From NCBI RefSeq assembly GCF_026319305.1, contig NZ_JAPDMV010000012.1, forward strand, positions 1-64,000: a DNA stretch of 64,000 bases. The letters run 5' to 3'. Below the pieces are notes generated by a model. It saw only the letters and a list, made by a program, of their open reading frames with translations, had not been told where the DNA came from and did no database searches. The translations under genes were made by a program, and so were the position numbers. Position 1 is the first letter of the stretch. Each line of letters starts with the position of its first letter. This stretch comes from Methylophaga sp. OBS4 (lineage in GTDB: Bacteria; Pseudomonadota; Gammaproteobacteria; Nitrosococcales; Methylophagaceae). Of this stretch, positions 13,829 through 62,680 are shown one piece after another.

Positions 13829-13939
13829 ATTGATAAACAATAACATCTACATCGGGTTCAGTTTTTAAAATGGAAGCCCCATTATAAAAAACACCTTCCC
13901 TTTCCCCATATTGTTATCACATGCGATAAAGAAAAATAA

Positions 13940-14304
<365 letters not shown>

Positions 14305-37095: not shown

Positions 37096-37587
37096 TCAAC
37101 TCGGCAATATAACAAAGACTTGCAGGACAATCGCCGCATAGATTCCGGCCAGCACATCATCAAGCATAATGCCCAGACCGCCATGCAACTTTCTGTCTGC
37201 AAGTGAAATCGGCCAGGGCTTCCAGATATCAAATAATCGGAACAATACAAAGCCGATCACCATCCATTGCCAGCCCGCAGGTGCCGCTGTCATGGTCACC
37301 AGATAACCGACAATTTCGTCCCAGACCACCGCGGATGGATCATCACTGCCCAACCAGTCCGCCGCCTGCTGACAAATCCAGATACCGGCGATAAAAGCCA
37401 AAACAGTCAGCAAAAGATAAACCGGCAGCGACAGATCTTTCATCAACCAGAATAAAGGTAACGCCGCCAATGTGCCGAAAGTCCCCGGCGCGAGGGGTGC
37501 CAGGCCACTGCCAAAACCATACGCCAGAAAACAGGCAGGTCGCCTCAATAAGGCCTTAAAGCTAACTTCAGGCCGAGAAGTGGTCAT
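37096..37587 (-). CDS. pgpA: Phosphatidylglycerophosphatase A
   Basis: Membrane phosphatase that makes phosphatidylglycerol. In 163 residues it has FLAYGFGSGLAPLAPGTFGTLAALPLFW near the start, DDPSAVVWDEIVGYL with the conserved acidic residues, and FRLFDIWKPWPISLADRKLHGGLGIMLDDVLAG near the end; about four membrane helices. The start overlaps the thiL end by 20 bp, the usual thiL-pgpA coupling. Confidence 0.95.
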   Translation of the reverse strand: MTTSRPEVSFKALLRRPACFLAYGFGSGLAPLAPGTFGTLAALPLFWLMKDLSLPVYLLLTVLAFIAGIWICQQAADWLGSDDPSAVVWDEIVGYLVTMTAAPAGWQWMVIGFVLFRLFDIWKPWPISLADRKLHGGLGIMLDDVLAGIYAAIVLQVFVILPS

Positions 37588-38539
37588 ATCCTGTCCTTAG
37601 ATTTTCCAATGCGATTTCCTGCAGATCTTTTCCTATCAATTTCAGTCCCGGCTCATCAGTGATTTCGCCAATACAGGTGATATTGTCACAACTGGCATCC
37701 AACTGGCCGGCTAAAGTTCGTGGCACAGTAAAGCACAGCTCATAATCATCACCCGAACTCAATGCCAATTGATGCGCTGTTGATGAATCCAGTTTAGTTA
37801 GTGCCGGAGACAATGGTAGACGGTCAAGCTGAACAATCGCACCTTTATGACTTTTGTCGAGAATATGGCCCAGATCGGCCAACAGGCCGTCTGAGATATC
37901 GATAGCGGCATGAGCAATACCCAGCAATTTCGGTGAAATATCTATTCTCGGCGTTGGCCGCTCCAGGCGCTGTTGCAGGTATTGCCAGTCCCGCTCATCT
38001 AAAACATCCTGTTGCCAGTTCTGCAAGCGTGTTTGCAACGCGGCACCGGCATCACCCAAAGTACCTGTTACATAAATCAAATCACCTACTTGAGCAGTGT
38101 CACGTCGTAAAACATGTGTTTTATCAACCAGGCCATGCACTTGAATGCTGATGGTCAGTGGTCCACGGGTGGTATCGCCGCCCACCAGCTGAATCTGGTG
38201 TTGTAATGCCAGCTCAGCCAAGCCACGGGCAAAGCTTTCAAGCCAGTCTTCGTTAACTTCCGGTAAAGTCAAAGCCAGAGTAAACCAGACAGGTTTAGCC
38301 CCCATCGCAGCCAAGTCACTCAATCCGACCGCCAGGCTTTTATAGCCCAGACTAATCGGATCGACATCGGCAAAAAAATGAACGCCCTCTACCAGGGTAT
38401 CGATAGAAACGGCAATATTTTTATCCGGCGGGCAGGCAAGCACAGCACAATCATCGCCAATACCCACCACAACGTCATCACGCGAAACAGTGAGTTTGGC
38501 AAAATATTGTTCAATCAGAGAAAATTCGGATAGGGCCAA
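37568..38539 (-). CDS. thiL: Thiamine-monophosphate kinase
   Basis: Phosphorylates thiamine monophosphate to TPP, the last step of thiamine cofactor synthesis or salvage. The 323-residue product has VVGIGDDCAVLACP, SIDTLVEGVHFF, VGLSDLAAMGAKPVWFTLALTLP and LVGGDTTRGPLTISI, the ATP/Mg binding blocks of the PurM-like family. It belongs to the ribH-nusB-thiL-pgpA group. It links functionally to the thiamine uptake locus at 57074-60859. Confidence 0.96.
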   Translation of the reverse strand: MALSEFSLIEQYFAKLTVSRDDVVVGIGDDCAVLACPPDKNIAVSIDTLVEGVHFFADVDPISLGYKSLAVGLSDLAAMGAKPVWFTLALTLPEVNEDWLESFARGLAELALQHQIQLVGGDTTRGPLTISIQVHGLVDKTHVLRRDTAQVGDLIYVTGTLGDAGAALQTRLQNWQQDVLDERDWQYLQQRLERPTPRIDISPKLLGIAHAAIDISDGLLADLGHILDKSHKGAIVQLDRLPLSPALTKLDSSTAHQLALSSGDDYELCFTVPRTLAGQLDASCDNITCIGEITDEPGLKLIGKDLQEIALENLRTGYDHFSA

Positions 38540-56925: not shown

Positions 56926-57073
56926 GTCGATTTAGAAGCTGGCATATAGTTCAACGATTGCAGTACCATATTCGTTACGAATTCATGGCTGGTCTGAACG
57001 GCCACTATTTCAACCAGAACCCATTTCAAACACCAACGCTGCCAAACAAGCAGCACTTTTGAGATAGGTTCGT

Positions 57074-57150
57074 AAGCCTCGGGGTGGCGTAATGCCTGAG
57101 ATAACACCCGATGAACCTGATCCAGACAACACTGGCGTAGGGACTGGCTG
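57074..57150 (+). promoter_or_regulatory. TPP riboswitch (THI element)
   Basis: The conserved order of the thiamine pyrophosphate aptamer is present: CTCGGGGT (57078-57085), then GCCTGAGATAACACCC (about 57094-57109), then GAACCTGATCCAG (57113-57125) and CACTGGCGTAGGGA (57130-57143). These match the pyrimidine- and pyrophosphate-binding loops. It controls the TonB receptor gene starting at 57220. Confidence 0.93.
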
Positions 57151-57184
57151 AGACACCTTTAGTTTTTTGGCTTTTGTGTGCTGC

Positions 57185-57218
57185 TTAACCTTTCTTTCCT
57201 CCGCCGAAAGAAGGTTAA
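57185..57218 (+). promoter_or_regulatory. Hairpin masking the receptor ribosome-binding site
   Basis: TTAACCTTTCTTTC (57185-57198) pairs with GAAAGAAGGTTAA (57206-57218), with one unpaired T and a 7-nt loop. The 3' arm contains the AAGAAGG ribosome site (57208-57214) of the ATG at 57220. As the expression platform of the TPP riboswitch it would block translation when TPP is bound. I see no U-rich terminator. Confidence 0.65.
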
Positions 57219-57219
57219 T

Positions 57220-59310
57220 ATGAAATATTCCACGATTACATTGGCGATTACAGCCGCTATTTTCACTCCGGCATTGCAAGCTGAAGACACAACACCAGCC
57301 GAACTGCCGGCCATGGTAGTGAGCGCCGACTTCCGCCCCGGCGAAGCGCAGGACACCCCTGTGAGCCTGACCACATTTGATGATGAAATCATTGAATCGC
57401 GGGGTGCCCAGCATGTCGAAGATGTGCTCAACCTGGCACCCAACGTCAACATTTCCAGCGGTGCTTCCCGGGGGCAGTATTTCCAGATCCGCGGTATCGG
57501 TGAACGCAGCCAGTTTGCCGCGCCGTTGAACCCATCGGTGGGGCTAGTCATCGACGGCATTGATTTCAGCCGTACCGGCGGTGCCGCCACCTTGTTTGAC
57601 ATCGAGCAAGTCGAAGTGCTGCGCGGTCCGCAAGGCACGCTCTACGGCACCAATGGCCTGGCCGGCACCATCAACCTGCGCAGCAAACAGGCCAGCGAAG
57701 AGTTCGATATGCATTTCGAATCCACATTGGCAACTTACAACACCCGCGCTGTCGGTGTCGCCGTCGGCGGCCCTTTGATTGAAAACAGCCTGCTGGGGCG
57801 TATTGCCGTCCATACTCATCAATCAGATGGTTATATGGATAACGATTTTCTGGGCAGGGATAATACCCATAACCGGGATGAAATCACCGCCCGCGGCCAT
57901 CTGAAATGGCTGGTCAATCATGATCTGACCGTCGACTTGAACCTGCTGCATCTTAATATCGATAACGGCTATGATGCATTCACCCTGGACAACAGCCGCA
58001 ACAGCCTGGCCGACGATCCCGGCGAAGACAGCCAGCACACCAACGCCTTTGCCCTGAAAGCCGACTGGCGCGCCAGCGACAAGGTGCAGCTGCAATCGAC
58101 CGTGACTTACGCCAAATCCGATATTGTCTACAGCTATGATGCCGACTGGGGTTTTGCCGGTCAGTTCGACCCGGCTTTGTTCCCGTATATTGGTTTTGAA
58201 GAGTTCAAACGCAACCGTGAAAACTACTCGCTGGAACTGCGCGTCCTGTCCAACGAAAACGGCCGTATCTTCAATAACTCCACCGACTGGACGGTCGGCT
58301 TTTATCATCTCGATCAAAGCGAAAAGTTTCAGCAGGATTCCGACTTCGGCATCTTCGGCGCCACCTTTGTCAGGGGCGATTATGACACGCAAAATACAGC
58401 CGGTTTCGGCCAGCTCGATACCCACCTGACCGACAAGCTGACCTTGATCACCGGCTTACGGCTGGAATATTTCGATGCTGCCTATCGCGACTCCAACAAC
58501 CTGAAAGTCGATCCTGACGAATGGCTGTTCGGCGGTAAACTCGGCCTAAATTATCAGGTCACGGACGATCATCTGGCCTTCACCACCTTGTCGCGCGGTT
58601 ACAAATCCGGCGGCGTTAACAACGATGCCCGCCTGGCCCCGGGGCAGCGTGAGTTTGATACCGAATATCTGTGGAATCTGGAAGCGGGACTCAAATCCAG
58701 CTGGCTGAACGGCGACCTCATCACCAATATCGTCGCCTTCTATGCGCTGAGAAAAGATGCCCAGGTCAAAAGCTCGATTGATATCGGCCCGCAGTTTATC
58801 GACTTCATCGATAATGCCGCCAAAGGCAAAAATATCGGTATCGAGGCTGATATGGACTGGCTGCTCAATAATGAATGGCGCATGTTTGCCGCTGTCGGAC
58901 TGCTGCATGCGACATTTGACGAGTTCGACAATCCCGATCTGGAAGCTGAAGGCGTGGACTTAAGCGGCCGCCGCCAAGCCCATGCGCCGGCCTATAACTT
59001 CAACTTGGGCGCGGAATATTACTTTGCGCCGAACTGGACTTTGCGCGCCAATATGGAAGGCAAGGATGAGTTCTATTTCTCCAACAGCCATAATGCCAAG
59101 TCGCATTCCTATGTGTTATATAACGCCAGCCTGGAATATCGTCAAAAAGACTGGAAATTCACCCTGTGGGGGCGCAATCTGTTTGACAAGAACTATTACA
59201 CACGCGGTTTCTTTTTCGGCAATGACCCGTCTTTGGGTTATGCCGAGCGTACCTATGTGCAATTCGGCGATCCGCGTGTAATCGGTTTGACTGTTAGTTA
59301 CGATTATTAG
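57220..59310 (+). CDS. TonB-dependent outer-membrane receptor, probably for thiamine
   Basis: Outer-membrane beta-barrel receptor of 696 residues, powered by TonB. It has a signal peptide (about 1-21, ending LQA), a plug domain with LPAMVVSADFRPGEAQDTP, the RGIGERSQFA and VEVLRGPQGTLYGTNGLAGTINL plug signatures, and a 22-strand-type barrel ending YVQFGDPRVIGLTVSYDY with aromatic last residue. The TPP riboswitch upstream and thiamine-type genes downstream point to thiamine or a derivative as ligand; specificity is inferred, not seen. ATG 57220 is used, not the GTG at 57178, which would precede the ribosome-site hairpin. Confidence 0.93.
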   Translation: MKYSTITLAITAAIFTPALQAEDTTPAELPAMVVSADFRPGEAQDTPVSLTTFDDEIIESRGAQHVEDVLNLAPNVNISSGASRGQYFQIRGIGERSQFAAPLNPSVGLVIDGIDFSRTGGAATLFDIEQVEVLRGPQGTLYGTNGLAGTINLRSKQASEEFDMHFESTLATYNTRAVGVAVGGPLIENSLLGRIAVHTHQSDGYMDNDFLGRDNTHNRDEITARGHLKWLVNHDLTVDLNLLHLNIDNGYDAFTLDNSRNSLADDPGEDSQHTNAFALKADWRASDKVQLQSTVTYAKSDIVYSYDADWGFAGQFDPALFPYIGFEEFKRNRENYSLELRVLSNENGRIFNNSTDWTVGFYHLDQSEKFQQDSDFGIFGATFVRGDYDTQNTAGFGQLDTHLTDKLTLITGLRLEYFDAAYRDSNNLKVDPDEWLFGGKLGLNYQVTDDHLAFTTLSRGYKSGGVNNDARLAPGQREFDTEYLWNLEAGLKSSWLNGDLITNIVAFYALRKDAQVKSSIDIGPQFIDFIDNAAKGKNIGIEADMDWLLNNEWRMFAAVGLLHATFDEFDNPDLEAEGVDLSGRRQAHAPAYNFNLGAEYYFAPNWTLRANMEGKDEFYFSNSHNAKSHSYVLYNASLEYRQKDWKFTLWGRNLFDKNYYTRGFFFGNDPSLGYAERTYVQFGDPRVIGLTVSYDY

Positions 59311-59379
59311 GAGATTGGGCACCGTTCGCCCTGAGCTCTGAGCCTGACGAAGAGTCGAAGGGCGCAACTCAAACTTACG

Positions 59380-59406
59380 CTGGCTCCCGCAGAGCATAGG
59401 AGCCAG
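59380..59406. repeat. Hairpin between receptor and YkoF-like gene
   Basis: CTGGCTCC (59380-59387) and GGAGCCAG (59399-59406) form a perfect 8-bp stem. Just upstream is a dispersed-repeat-like segment, GCCTGACGAAGAGTCGAAGG, similar to one near 60140-60190. The hairpin lacks a T run, so it may be an mRNA processing or partial stop site. Confidence 0.5.
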
Positions 59407-59455
59407 TCCGGAAAGATGAACCCGCTCAAACGGCCTCAGAAAAGGAGAAGTCATC

Positions 59456-59713
59456 ATGCGTATTTCCGTTGATATCAGCTTATATCCGTTGACCGAAAAC
59501 TATGCCGAGCTGATTCTGGCGTTTATCGACAAGCTGGAAAACAACCCGAAACTACAAGTATTGCGTAATAACCTCAGTACCCAGATTTTCGGTGAATACC
59601 GCGATGTGATGGATGCCATAGACAGCGAAGTTGAATTGGTGTTCAAAGAACTGCCGCATAGCGCTTTTGTGTTCAAAATGATCGGCACCGACCGCTACGA
59701 AGTTGAAGAGTGA
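59456..59713 (+). CDS. YkoF/MTH1187-family thiamine-binding protein
   Basis: An 85-residue protein of the MTH1187/YkoF family (DUF77), whose members bind thiamine or its precursors. The signature MRISVDISLYPLTENYAELI and NNLSTQIFGEYRDVMDAI is clear. It lacks a signal peptide and is cytoplasmic. It has GGAG seven bases upstream. Position between a TPP-regulated receptor and a PnuC-like permease supports a role in thiamine salvage. Confidence 0.88.
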   Translation: MRISVDISLYPLTENYAELILAFIDKLENNPKLQVLRNNLSTQIFGEYRDVMDAIDSEVELVFKELPHSAFVFKMIGTDRYEVEE

Positions 59714-59799
59714 TCCCCTTACTCTGCGCCATAGCGGGTTGGCAATGGGCAGAGTGAATCCCAATATTAAAGATATCTGTTGGGGTTCGTTCCTCAACC

Positions 59800-59851
59800 C
59801 AACAAATTATCCGTTCATACTGAAACACAACAAATTATCCGTTCATACTGA
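59800..59851. repeat. Direct repeat, 24 bp twice
   Basis: CAACAAATTATCCGTTCATA plus CTGA occurs at 59800-59823 and again at 59828-59851, identical over 24 bp with a 28-bp period. Confidence 0.8.
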
Positions 59852-59954
59852 GCTTGTCGAAGTATAAGCAAATAAATTAAGTAACCTGAGCTGCGTATAA
59901 GAAATAATGCTCCAAGCAAAGGACTCACCGTAAATCAGAAACGTTGTCCTGCCG

Positions 59955-60052
59955 ACCACCAATTGCTCCTGCATTGGTGGCATACCGTCCATCCTTGGAC
60001 ATAACCACCAATTGCTCCTGCATTGGTGGCATACCGTCCATCCTTGGACATA
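59955..60052. repeat. Two tandem 49-bp hairpin units
   Basis: Units at 59955-60003 and 60004-60052 are identical. Each has CCACCAAT/ATTGGTGG arms around TGCTCCTGC and then GTCCA/TGGAC arms, so each unit folds into two hairpins. This resembles REP-type intergenic repeats. Confidence 0.85.
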
Positions 60053-60232
60053 ACCGCAGCGGAGGCATCTTTTGTTGTACATAAAAAGTGGCGTGTCGTT
60101 TCTCCTTCTTTCCTTAATGCGCAGATCAGGTTAAATGCCCTTCGACTACTCCTCTTCGCCAAGCTCAGCGTCGCGCTCAGGGCGAACGGTTTAGACTATG
60201 TTCCGAACATAAGCTTCTTCACAGGATATTGA

Positions 60233-60859
60233 ATGACCGATAAACCACAAATTCAAGCCATGCTCGACGGCCTGCAATCCCTGTCTGGCTGGGAAGTTAC
60301 CGCCGCTATCCTGGGCATTGGCTATATATTGTTCGCCGCCCGCGAATCACAATGGTGCTGGCCGCTGGCATTTATCAGCACGCTCATCTACACCGTCTTG
60401 TTTTGGGAAGGCCAGTTGCCGATGCAAGCGCTGCTTAACTTCTACTATATGGGCATGGCGATTTACGGCTTTATGCTGTGGCGACATCATAAACATGCCG
60501 AAGATGACTTGCCTATCCATAGCTGGCCGCTGCGATACCATCTTATTTTTCTTGTCATCGGCACAGTGCTGACCCTCCTGGTCGGTTATTACCTGCAACA
60601 TATTCATGCCTCACAACGACCCTACCTCGATGCCGGCGTCACGGTATTTTCGGTGCTCAACACCTGGATGATGGCACGCAAAGTCCTGCAAAACTGGCTG
60701 TATTGGATCATTATCGATGCGGCCGCGATAGTGCTTTATCTGCAAACCGGTTTTTATGCCACCGTGATGCTGTTCTCGCTTTATACCGTGCTGGCCACAG
60801 CCGGCTTTATCAACTGGATCAGACTGTATCGCCAACAGCCGAATTATCAGCTACGATAA
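60233..60859 (+). CDS. PnuC-family transporter, probably thiamine (PnuT)
   Basis: A 208-residue membrane permease with about seven helices of the PnuC family, which imports nicotinamide riboside, thiamine or riboflavin by facilitated diffusion with intracellular trapping. The family block is QWCWPLAFISTLIYTVLFWEG and NWLYWIIIDAAAIVLYLQTGF. PnuT members of this family are often TPP-riboswitch controlled. Its place downstream of the riboswitch-controlled receptor and YkoF gene suggests thiamine; the substrate is inferred from context. Confidence 0.88.
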   Translation: MTDKPQIQAMLDGLQSLSGWEVTAAILGIGYILFAARESQWCWPLAFISTLIYTVLFWEGQLPMQALLNFYYMGMAIYGFMLWRHHKHAEDDLPIHSWPLRYHLIFLVIGTVLTLLVGYYLQHIHASQRPYLDAGVTVFSVLNTWMMARKVLQNWLYWIIIDAAAIVLYLQTGFYATVMLFSLYTVLATAGFINWIRLYRQQPNYQLR

Positions 60860-60888: not shown

Positions 60889-61407
60889 ATGCACGCCAAC
60901 ACTTTGAAAACCGTCTGGGGTTATTTCAAAAGCAAGCTAAACCTGCCGAAAAAGAGTCAGTCGCTTTCGGATATCTACAACTATCTGCCGATCACCGATA
61001 CACTGGCGACATCAGGCCAGCCCACTGCAGAGCAATTCGCTTTGATTAAACAAGCCGGCTACCAAGTCGTGATCAACCTGGCACCCAGTCAAGCCAACAA
61101 TGCCATTGCAAACGAAGATGCCGTGGTAGCGAAAATGGGGCTCGACTACATCCATATTCCGGTCGATTTCAAGAACCCGACACAGGAAGACTTCAACACC
61201 TTTGCCACAAATATGCAGCAATTATCTAACCGCAAGATCTGGATACACTGCGCGGCCAATATGCGTGTATCAGCATTCATCTATAAATACCGTCATGATG
61301 TGCTGGGTGAAGATGAAACCAAGCCTAGTAAAGATCTACATAAAATCTGGCAGCCTTATGGCGTATGGAAAGATTTTTTATCACCCACAGGTTGGAATAA
61401 AGAATGA
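60889..61407 (+). CDS. Protein tyrosine phosphatase-like protein (HCxxxxR variant)
   Basis: A 172-residue protein resembling the DSP/DUF442-type phosphatase family. DTLATSGQPTAEQFALIKQAGYQVVINL is a family-like start. The presumed P-loop is WIHCAANMRVSAF with C121 and R126, a C-x4-R spacing rather than the classic C-x5-R. Activity cannot be assumed. Its start lies 29 bp after the PnuC-like gene, so it may be in the same transcript, but a thiamine role is not evident. Confidence 0.8.
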   Translation: MHANTLKTVWGYFKSKLNLPKKSQSLSDIYNYLPITDTLATSGQPTAEQFALIKQAGYQVVINLAPSQANNAIANEDAVVAKMGLDYIHIPVDFKNPTQEDFNTFATNMQQLSNRKIWIHCAANMRVSAFIYKYRHDVLGEDETKPSKDLHKIWQPYGVWKDFLSPTGWNKE

Positions 61408-61753: not shown

Positions 61754-62680
61754 TTAAAACTTAACCGGCGCCTGCATCCATTTATCAATACCGATCTCGC
61801 CCAGCACGTTCATCATAAACAGCAGTAAACGGTAACTAAGGCGTTGGTTGGATAGGTCAGGTAAATCCAGATAACGTTGGTAAATATCACTAAAAAGTTG
61901 CGCCTGCTGTTCATCGAGCAGGTATTCCAACAATACCAATTCCATTTCACGCGGGCCGATGACAAAAGCATCCAGATCCACCAGCGCGGTGATTTTGCCC
62001 TGCCGGTGCAGAAACTGGTCCCAACGCAGGTCGGGCATGATCAGGGAGAAGGTTTGCGGCTGGACTTGTTCGATTTGGGCGATAGCCAGTCCCAGCCACG
62101 GTTCGCCAATGCCTTGGCGGTGAGCGAGATTGACCAGGGTTTTTAGCAGTTTTTCCGGCCATAGGTCGGCGTGAAAAGCCGCACGTCTTACTTTGCCCCA
62201 GTGATTGAAGTCCTGCTGATGCAGTTTGCCGACATGACGGGCTAGTTGTTCGATTATCTTGTCCGAGACGTGCGCCTCATCGAGCATCTCTCCGTGAAGA
62301 TAGCGGCTGAGGATAAAGGCCGGGCTGGTTTCGGTGCTGGCCGAGCAGGCCACGACTTCGGGCAATTCGAAGTCGATATGCCTGTCGAGTTCGTTTCGAA
62401 TCGAAGCGAAACGTCCCAAATCGTCAGGCAGATAAACATCAAACAACTGATTTAACACCAGCCAAATCGGCGATTCATCCACATTTTCCTGTAGGCAAAT
62501 CTTCAGCATCAACTCTCCGATCTCTGTTTCACAGTGCCAGAGCTGATGAGTGCTGTCTTCATACATGGCCGGCAGCGGCTCGGCATGATACAGCTCAGGC
62601 AGCGGCTGTGTTGAGGAGAGTTGCTTAAATGGGTTTGTTGATTCCTTGCTACCACTCTTTTTTGATATGGGTTTTACCAA
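61754..62680 (-). CDS. Aminoglycoside phosphotransferase-fold kinase
   Basis: A 308-residue protein of the APH/choline-kinase fold. The likely metal and ATP sites are MPDLRWDQFLHRQGKITALVDLDAFVIGPREMEL, where DLRWDQFL takes the place of the catalytic HGDxxxxN and DLDAFVIG the Mg-binding DFD/DLD. The substrate is not identifiable. Thiamine kinase (ThiK) has this fold and a thiamine-uptake locus lies next door, so ThiK is a hypothesis, but the gene is on the other strand. It overlaps the SDR gene end by 7 bp. Confidence 0.75.
   Translation of the reverse strand: MVKPISKKSGSKESTNPFKQLSSTQPLPELYHAEPLPAMYEDSTHQLWHCETEIGELMLKICLQENVDESPIWLVLNQLFDVYLPDDLGRFASIRNELDRHIDFELPEVVACSASTETSPAFILSRYLHGEMLDEAHVSDKIIEQLARHVGKLHQQDFNHWGKVRRAAFHADLWPEKLLKTLVNLAHRQGIGEPWLGLAIAQIEQVQPQTFSLIMPDLRWDQFLHRQGKITALVDLDAFVIGPREMELVLLEYLLDEQQAQLFSDIYQRYLDLPDLSNQRLSYRLLLFMMNVLGEIGIDKWMQAPVKF

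Follow-up and report, generated by a model that had tools for sequence, protein, structure and literature searches.

A likely thiamine pyrophosphate-repressed thiamine uptake and salvage locus in Methylophaga with a candidate thiamine kinase

Introduction

Seawater contains little vitamin B1 (thiamine), and uptake of the vitamin is a necessity for many marine bacteria. We analysed a 64,000-nucleotide stretch (contig NZ_JAPDMV010000012.1, hereafter the window) of Methylophaga sp. OBS4, a methanol-using marine bacterium, taken from a 2.55-Mb draft genome that is 83.6% complete. In this window, a thiamine pyrophosphate (TPP) riboswitch aptamer precedes genes for a TonB-dependent receptor, a YkoF-family protein and a PnuC-family permease, which raises the question of what the locus imports and how the imported compound becomes TPP. 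Our results indicate that the locus likely serves thiamine uptake and salvage in a Methylophaga species under repression by TPP. We consider the chances slightly better than even that the gene convergent with the permease gene stands for a thiamine kinase family that has no name yet and whose APH catalytic loop has been rebuilt to MxDxRWDQ. Such a family would have been passed on together with receptor-YkoF-PnuT loci in Methylophaga, Methylophilus and Thiomicrospira relatives, and it would bridge imported thiamine to ThiL in bacteria without thiamine pyrophosphokinase or E. coli-type ThiK. The coordinates of all features are given in Table 1.

A TPP aptamer and a Shine-Dalgarno-covering hairpin precede the receptor gene

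An aptamer ahead of the receptor gene had been proposed by an earlier sequence-only reading of the window, and the search with the Rfam TPP model bore this out, scoring above the gathering score (E 1.1e-10, 64 kb searched). The TPP aptamer likewise lay upstream of the receptor gene in the relatives' loci that we read. Folding of the last 42 nt up to the receptor ATG in the window gave a minimum free energy of -11.9 kcal/mol (z -4.9) and a hairpin that covers the Shine-Dalgarno sequence. Such a hairpin was found at the same place in 25 relatives, and z was below -2 against shuffled sequences in 25 of the 26 leaders. The stem varies by lineage with its pairing preserved: the window has TTAACCTTTCTTTC, many relatives share TGTCCTTTTT, and locus L034 has GCTGTCCT.

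The occurrence of this hairpin in the window and in 25 relatives suggests TPP-off translational control of the receptor gene; the aptamer and the hairpin are computed, and the switching is what we infer from them. When TPP is scarce, the leader would leave the Shine-Dalgarno sequence of the receptor gene accessible, and when TPP is bound, the hairpin would mask it and translation would stop. Several relatives have an aptamer 3' strand (GGGACAGG) that could pair strongly with the hairpin's 5' arm (CCTGTCC), and this pairing is a plausible antisequestor. Its weakness in the window counts against the proposed switch.

The gene order is kept in the family and in other orders

The family set comprised 35 genomes, the window genome included, and the permease was present in 30 of them. 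All family loci read carried the aptamer, receptor, YkoF and permease in this order; L044, truncated by the end of its contig, was the sole exception. When named genomes were searched with the YkoF alignment, 80 loci were retrieved, 58 of which had receptor, YkoF and permease in succession, and the hosts were Methylophaga, Methylophilus, Thiomicrorhabdus, Hydrogenovibrio, Thiomicrospira, Pseudoalteromonas and Idiomarina. A Sulfurovum plasmid carried an aptamer, a receptor (split annotation), YkoF, a permease (split annotation) and a choline/ethanolamine-kinase-like gene. Most of the distant proteobacterial loci scanned had a TPP aptamer upstream of the receptor gene; the aptamer was elsewhere, downstream, in two Pseudoalteromonas loci, and the scan of Thiomicrorhabdus loci L140 and L141 for a TPP aptamer gave no match over the cut-off. 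The locus is more than a chance arrangement, because its gene order is kept both in family relatives and in named genomes of other orders.

In the Bacteroidetes loci L153 (6266-7388) and L167 (6249-7365), YkoF adjoins a PnuC-family permease and an AAA_28 (NadR-kinase-like) gene, and no TPP aptamer scored over the cut-off. Since these two loci, which were read closely, have an AAA_28 kinase and no such aptamer, Bacteroidetes YkoF-PnuC loci were not used as evidence on thiamine.

The permease groups with TPP-linked PnuT-type proteins

The permease was placed in a tree of 53 PnuC-family proteins, a set without Shewanella woodyi PnuT, Corynebacterium glutamicum PnuX and Lactobacillus acidophilus PnuN. 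A clade of 24 rows (95/92) took in all 19 rows of the TPP/receptor/YkoF type plus a few others, and six nicotinamide riboside PnuC references (E. coli, Klebsiella, Salmonella, two phage proteins and 4qtn) formed a separate clade (98/85). The window permease has a PnuC-family sequence and grouped with the TPP-linked rather than the nicotinamide riboside-linked members; the PnuT assignment proposed from the sequence thus withstood the phylogeny. By family and clade, the window permease appears to be of the PnuT type, through which thiamine would pass.

Two results weigh against this assignment. The PnuT-like proteins were not monophyletic, and Bacteroides PnuT fell in another part of the tree, whose deep branching order is uncertain. 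In addition, the window permease scored over the cut-off of NCBIfam TIGR01528 (nicotinamide riboside transporter PnuC), and PnuC 4qtn was the sole solved homologue found, as would be expected if the permease were an ordinary nicotinamide riboside transporter standing by chance behind a TPP-controlled receptor. The NCBIfam name is uninformative, however, because a Bacteroides PnuT beside a thiamine diphosphokinase has the same name. The supported clade of the window permease, apart from the six reference proteins, and the retention of the permease with a TPP aptamer and YkoF in several orders both argue against nicotinamide riboside transport, which we rejected on the tree and the regulon and regard as highly improbable.

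The receptor resembles OMthi in setting and varies in sequence

The receptor ATG matches the start in relatives, and the protein begins with a signal-peptide-like stretch followed by a TonB-box-like AMVVSA. As a TonB-dependent receptor under a TPP switch and adjoining pnuT, it agrees with the definition of OMthi. Two receptor clades fill this slot among the relatives. In four Methylophagaceae loci (L043, L045, L055 and L056), the receptors group with Thiomicrospira-type receptors, and YkoF and PnuT are about 63-76% identical to those of the window. Judged from these sequences, this is a receptor swapped inside a fixed locus.

Several observations speak against assigning thiamine to the window receptor. 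The receptors of the four loci are 37-40% identical to it, and receptor identity is therefore not tightly bound to the locus. Its identity to the Bacteroides receptor is only 23% over 216 residues. It is similar to siderophore receptors in general and to B12 receptors too, with all matches below curated cut-offs, a pattern that would also fit a receptor importing an iron or cobalt complex and present in the locus by chance. Yet in the complete loci of the family that we read, the receptor gene comes first after the TPP aptamer, and plasmids of Bacteroides and Sulfurovum again carry receptor-PnuT pairs under TPP control; we judge iron or cobalt import improbable. Putative thiamine receptors are spread across several receptor clusters (PMC2771747), which agrees with the distant receptors found here.

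The YkoF protein is a single domain without a signal peptide

The YkoF-family and PnuC-family genes reported behind the receptor gene both scored above the Pfam cut-off. The structure model of the YkoF protein, with a predicted local distance difference test (pLDDT) score of 78.7, matched SP2199, TM0486, MJ1052 and MTH1187, all structures from the MTH1187/YkoF superfamily, at Z 9-11.6, reaching Z 11.6 and a root-mean-square deviation of 2.0-2.3 over 84 residues against 2ibo and TM0486. Sequence family and ferredoxin-like fold place it in the YkoF/MTH1187 thiamine-binding superfamily. It consists of one domain and not of the two tandem domains of the B. subtilis type, and would need another chain as its partner. 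The protein had been read as part of a route from the outer membrane to the cytoplasm. The family assignment stands, but the role of a carrier between the membranes does not: because no signal peptide was seen at its start, the protein is probably cytoplasmic and would not ferry thiamine there.

Relatives without thiamine synthesis retain the locus

Three family genomes that are 97-99% complete (G025, G026 and G028) retain the aptamer, receptor, YkoF and permease. ThiC and ThiE were not found in these three genomes, and the search for thiamine-type ThiD gave only weak matches of the same kind as in every genome examined. ThiL was found in both genomes of the trio that were searched for it. G056, from another family, is likewise without ThiC, ThiD and ThiE and carries an aptamer, a receptor, PnuT and an ordinary APH kinase in this order. 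Retention of the entire locus by the three family genomes in which ThiC, ThiD and ThiE are missing makes thiamine itself, and not a precursor, the most likely cargo.

Import of the pyrimidine precursor hydroxymethylpyrimidine (HMP), or of a related precursor, from which thiamine would then be built, would make ThiL alone enough and a thiamine kinase unnecessary. It would also suit the YkoF protein, since work cited in PMC5037267 and PMC10881298 terms YkoF a thiamine/HMP-binding protein; its role is called unclear even in Bacillus (PMC5037267). However, G025, G026, G028 and G056 keep the receptor and permease, and HMP could not become TPP in these genomes because ThiC, ThiE and a recognisable ThiD were not found. 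HMP import was rejected on the gene content of these auxotrophic relatives, and we consider it decidedly improbable.

In the window genome, thiC is split across two contigs and has a TPP aptamer to itself, and a single 500-residue frame gave matches to both ThiD and ThiE. Given these genes for de novo synthesis, thiamine uptake here is an alternative to synthesis; it would be a cheaper one in the window genome and essential in relatives without synthesis. The aptamer score, the permease tree and the synthesis-lacking relatives with the locus together lend good support to thiamine uptake under TPP control.

A convergent APH-fold protein is the best candidate for the missing kinase

ThiL converts thiamine monophosphate (TMP) to TPP and does not act on thiamine. 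The sequence-only reading had named thiL as the final kinase of the route. The gene is real, scoring over the NCBIfam cut-off, and ThiL was present in 14 of 14 genomes searched, but it cannot complete a route from thiamine because its substrate is TMP; a thiamine kinase or pyrophosphokinase must act on imported thiamine beforehand. Thiamine pyrophosphokinase was found in none of the 14 genomes, and the same search was positive in seven control genomes. The model of E. coli-type ThiK (NCBIfam TIGR02721) gave nothing convincing in the family and no match in the window genome or in the candidate described below. PnuT transport is by facilitated diffusion according to the title of Jaehme et al. 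2018 (as cited in PMC7749635), and a trapping kinase is therefore expected.

We infer that the gene convergent with pnuT is the best candidate for the missing kinase. The AlphaFold2 model of its product (pLDDT 93) has the fold of the APH superfamily and matched macrolide/aminoglycoside kinases at Z up to 18.2 over 257 residues and the choline kinase LicA at 16.5. K60, D217, D235 and Q222 are invariant in 27 aligned sequences. The candidate was present in 30 of 30 pnuT-bearing family genomes. Among the five family genomes without pnuT, it was not found in G029, G004, G018 or G024, the absence from the last three being judged from draft assemblies, and only a fragment was left in G032. G029 and G032 are drafts as well, but their flanks can be read directly: that of G029 keeps mtnA, SDR, SRPBCC and LysR genes with the receptor-to-kinase block gone, and that of G032 keeps mtnA and SDR beside the fragment.

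Among the named loci having both permease and kinase, the candidate lies at most 120 bases from pnuT in 43 of 54. It flanks pnuT in Methylophilus and in Thiomicrorhabdus and Hydrogenovibrio (Thiomicrospira group), and mtnA and SDR are absent from the flank there, so the candidate is linked to the thiamine locus and not to methionine salvage. Elsewhere, the slot beside pnuT holds ordinary APH genes in Idiomarina, Pseudoalteromonas and G056, a choline/ethanolamine-kinase-like gene in the Sulfurovum plasmid and a thiamine diphosphokinase in a Bacteroides plasmid; the Bacteroides and Sulfurovum plasmid loci are both under TPP aptamers. In a Novosphingobium plasmid, an APH gene precedes pnuC. With moderate confidence, we propose that the convergent APH-fold protein would phosphorylate thiamine to TMP.

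Several points count against this proposal. The canonical HxDxxxxN loop reads MxDxRWDQ in the 27 sequences, with H and N replaced. When profiles of the kinase family and E. coli ThiK were compared, no similarity was supported (probability 0.8%), and an NCBIfam scan of the 27 homologues returned only scattered weak APH-type names. The gene lies on the opposite strand, outside riboswitch control, and in 3 of the 58 receptor-YkoF-PnuT loci the flank contains neither such a kinase gene nor a substitute among the genes examined.

The APH fold is shared by methylthioribose kinases, and in Methylophaga the candidate gene directly follows SDR and mtnA, with all three on one strand. It could do another job, for example as the methylthioribose kinase for mtnA, with another unrecognised enzyme phosphorylating thiamine. 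Against this, the gene flanks pnuT without SDR or mtnA in the three genera named above, and it is lost or broken along with pnuT in G029 and G032, which retain mtnA and SDR. The Methylophilus and Thiomicrospira-group loci and G029 make a methylthioribose kinase role unlikely, and we hold a different job for the gene to be a tentative and rather doubtful explanation.

Layout of the locus and neighbouring features

The aptamer, receptor, YkoF and permease of the sequence-only reading were all recovered; the hairpin and the convergent kinase-like gene had been overlooked. The description of the gene set as compact did not hold, since ykoF and pnuT sit about 520 bases apart in the window with repeats between them, unlike those of relatives, which almost touch or overlap. 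The gap contains a perfect 49-nt tandem pair at 59955-60052 plus inverted repeats. Over 59300-60232, the operon gaps of the window genome are packed with repeats, including a 28-nt pair and inverted repeats bearing CTTCGACAAGCTCAG-like motifs.

An open reading frame for a DSP-PTPase-like protein (Pfam PTP-NADK, 60889-61407) lies 30 bases 3' of pnuT on the same strand. It was rejected as a member of the locus, as no counterpart occurs at the relatives' loci. Elsewhere in the window, a class A RNase P RNA was found at 13939-14302 (-) with 350 bits.

Table 1. Positions, strands and supporting evidence of the features in the window
Feature	Position	Strand	Evidence
TPP riboswitch aptamer (RF00059)	57070..57161	+	cmscan 65.8 bits, cut-off (gathering score) 54.3
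Hairpin pairing with the Shine-Dalgarno sequence, putative translational expression platform	57185..57218	+	Minimum free energy and z-score folding
TonB-dependent outer-membrane receptor, putative thiamine receptor	57220..59310	+	Pfam Plug 70.5 bits, barrel 124.4 bits
Single-domain YkoF-family protein, 85 aa, putative cytoplasmic thiamine binder	59456..59713	+	Pfam Ykof 30.5 bits, cut-off 21
ykoF-pnuT gap with repeats, 519 nt	59714..60232	.	Near zero in relatives
PnuC-family permease, probable PnuT (thiamine) kind	60233..60859	+	Pfam NMN_transporter 179.7 bits; tree clade
APH-fold kinase-like protein, candidate thiamine kinase, convergent with pnuT	61754..62680	-	Pfam APH 37.7 bits; AlphaFold2; tracks pnuT
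thiL, thiamine-monophosphate kinase	37577..38527	-	NCBIfam TIGR01379 over cut-off

Proposed route and comparison with known systems

In the proposed route, the receptor would move thiamine over the outer membrane with TonB energy, and the PnuT-type permease would equilibrate it across the inner membrane. YkoF may hold thiamine in the cytoplasm, the convergent APH-fold protein would convert it to TMP and so trap it, and ThiL would convert TMP to TPP. In methylotrophs that can be cultured, the locus thus provides every step of a proposed route from the receptor to the kinase, and it singles out one unnamed protein family as the candidate missing thiamine kinase. If this is true, the annotations of a permease named as a nicotinamide riboside transporter and of a kinase-like gene without a specific name would be corrected, and the locus would help to tell which methylotrophs must import B1.

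E. coli ThiK (YcfN) is an APH-superfamily thiamine kinase. The candidate would share its predicted fold class and its proposed reaction, but differs from it in lacking supported sequence similarity and in having the MxDxRWDQ loop instead of HxDxxxxN.

TPP-controlled receptor-PnuT pairs were predicted comparatively and then deletion-tested in Bacteroides thetaiotaomicron, where, without synthesis, the loss of either transporter (OMthi or PnuT) raises the thiamine need about tenfold (PMC5613172). The gene set had been put forward as an example worth describing; receptor-PnuT uptake under a TPP switch is thus already known, and the new element is the kinase candidate. A limited literature search found no description of the receptor-YkoF-PnuT set with the RWDQ kinase. 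The Bacteroides operons of OMthi, PnuT and thiamine pyrophosphokinase (tnr3) (PMC5613172; L209) share with the window a TPP aptamer, a TonB-dependent receptor, a PnuC-family permease and an adjoining thiamine-phosphorylating enzyme, which is a candidate here. The window adds a YkoF gene, its receptor belongs elsewhere in the receptor superfamily, and it has the convergent APH-fold protein where Bacteroides has thiamine pyrophosphokinase.

Shewanella woodyi PnuT (Jaehme et al. 2018, as cited in PMC7749635) is likewise a gammaproteobacterial PnuC-family permease, and some PnuT genes are associated with TPP switches. Thiamine transport by the window permease is a prediction. In Bacillus subtilis, the TPP-controlled thiamine transport operon of YkoEDC-YkoF (as cited in PMC5037267) likewise encodes a YkoF-family protein. 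There, the YkoF chain of 200 aa contains two matching stretches and accompanies an ECF transporter, whereas the window YkoF is a single 85-aa domain accompanying a receptor and PnuT.

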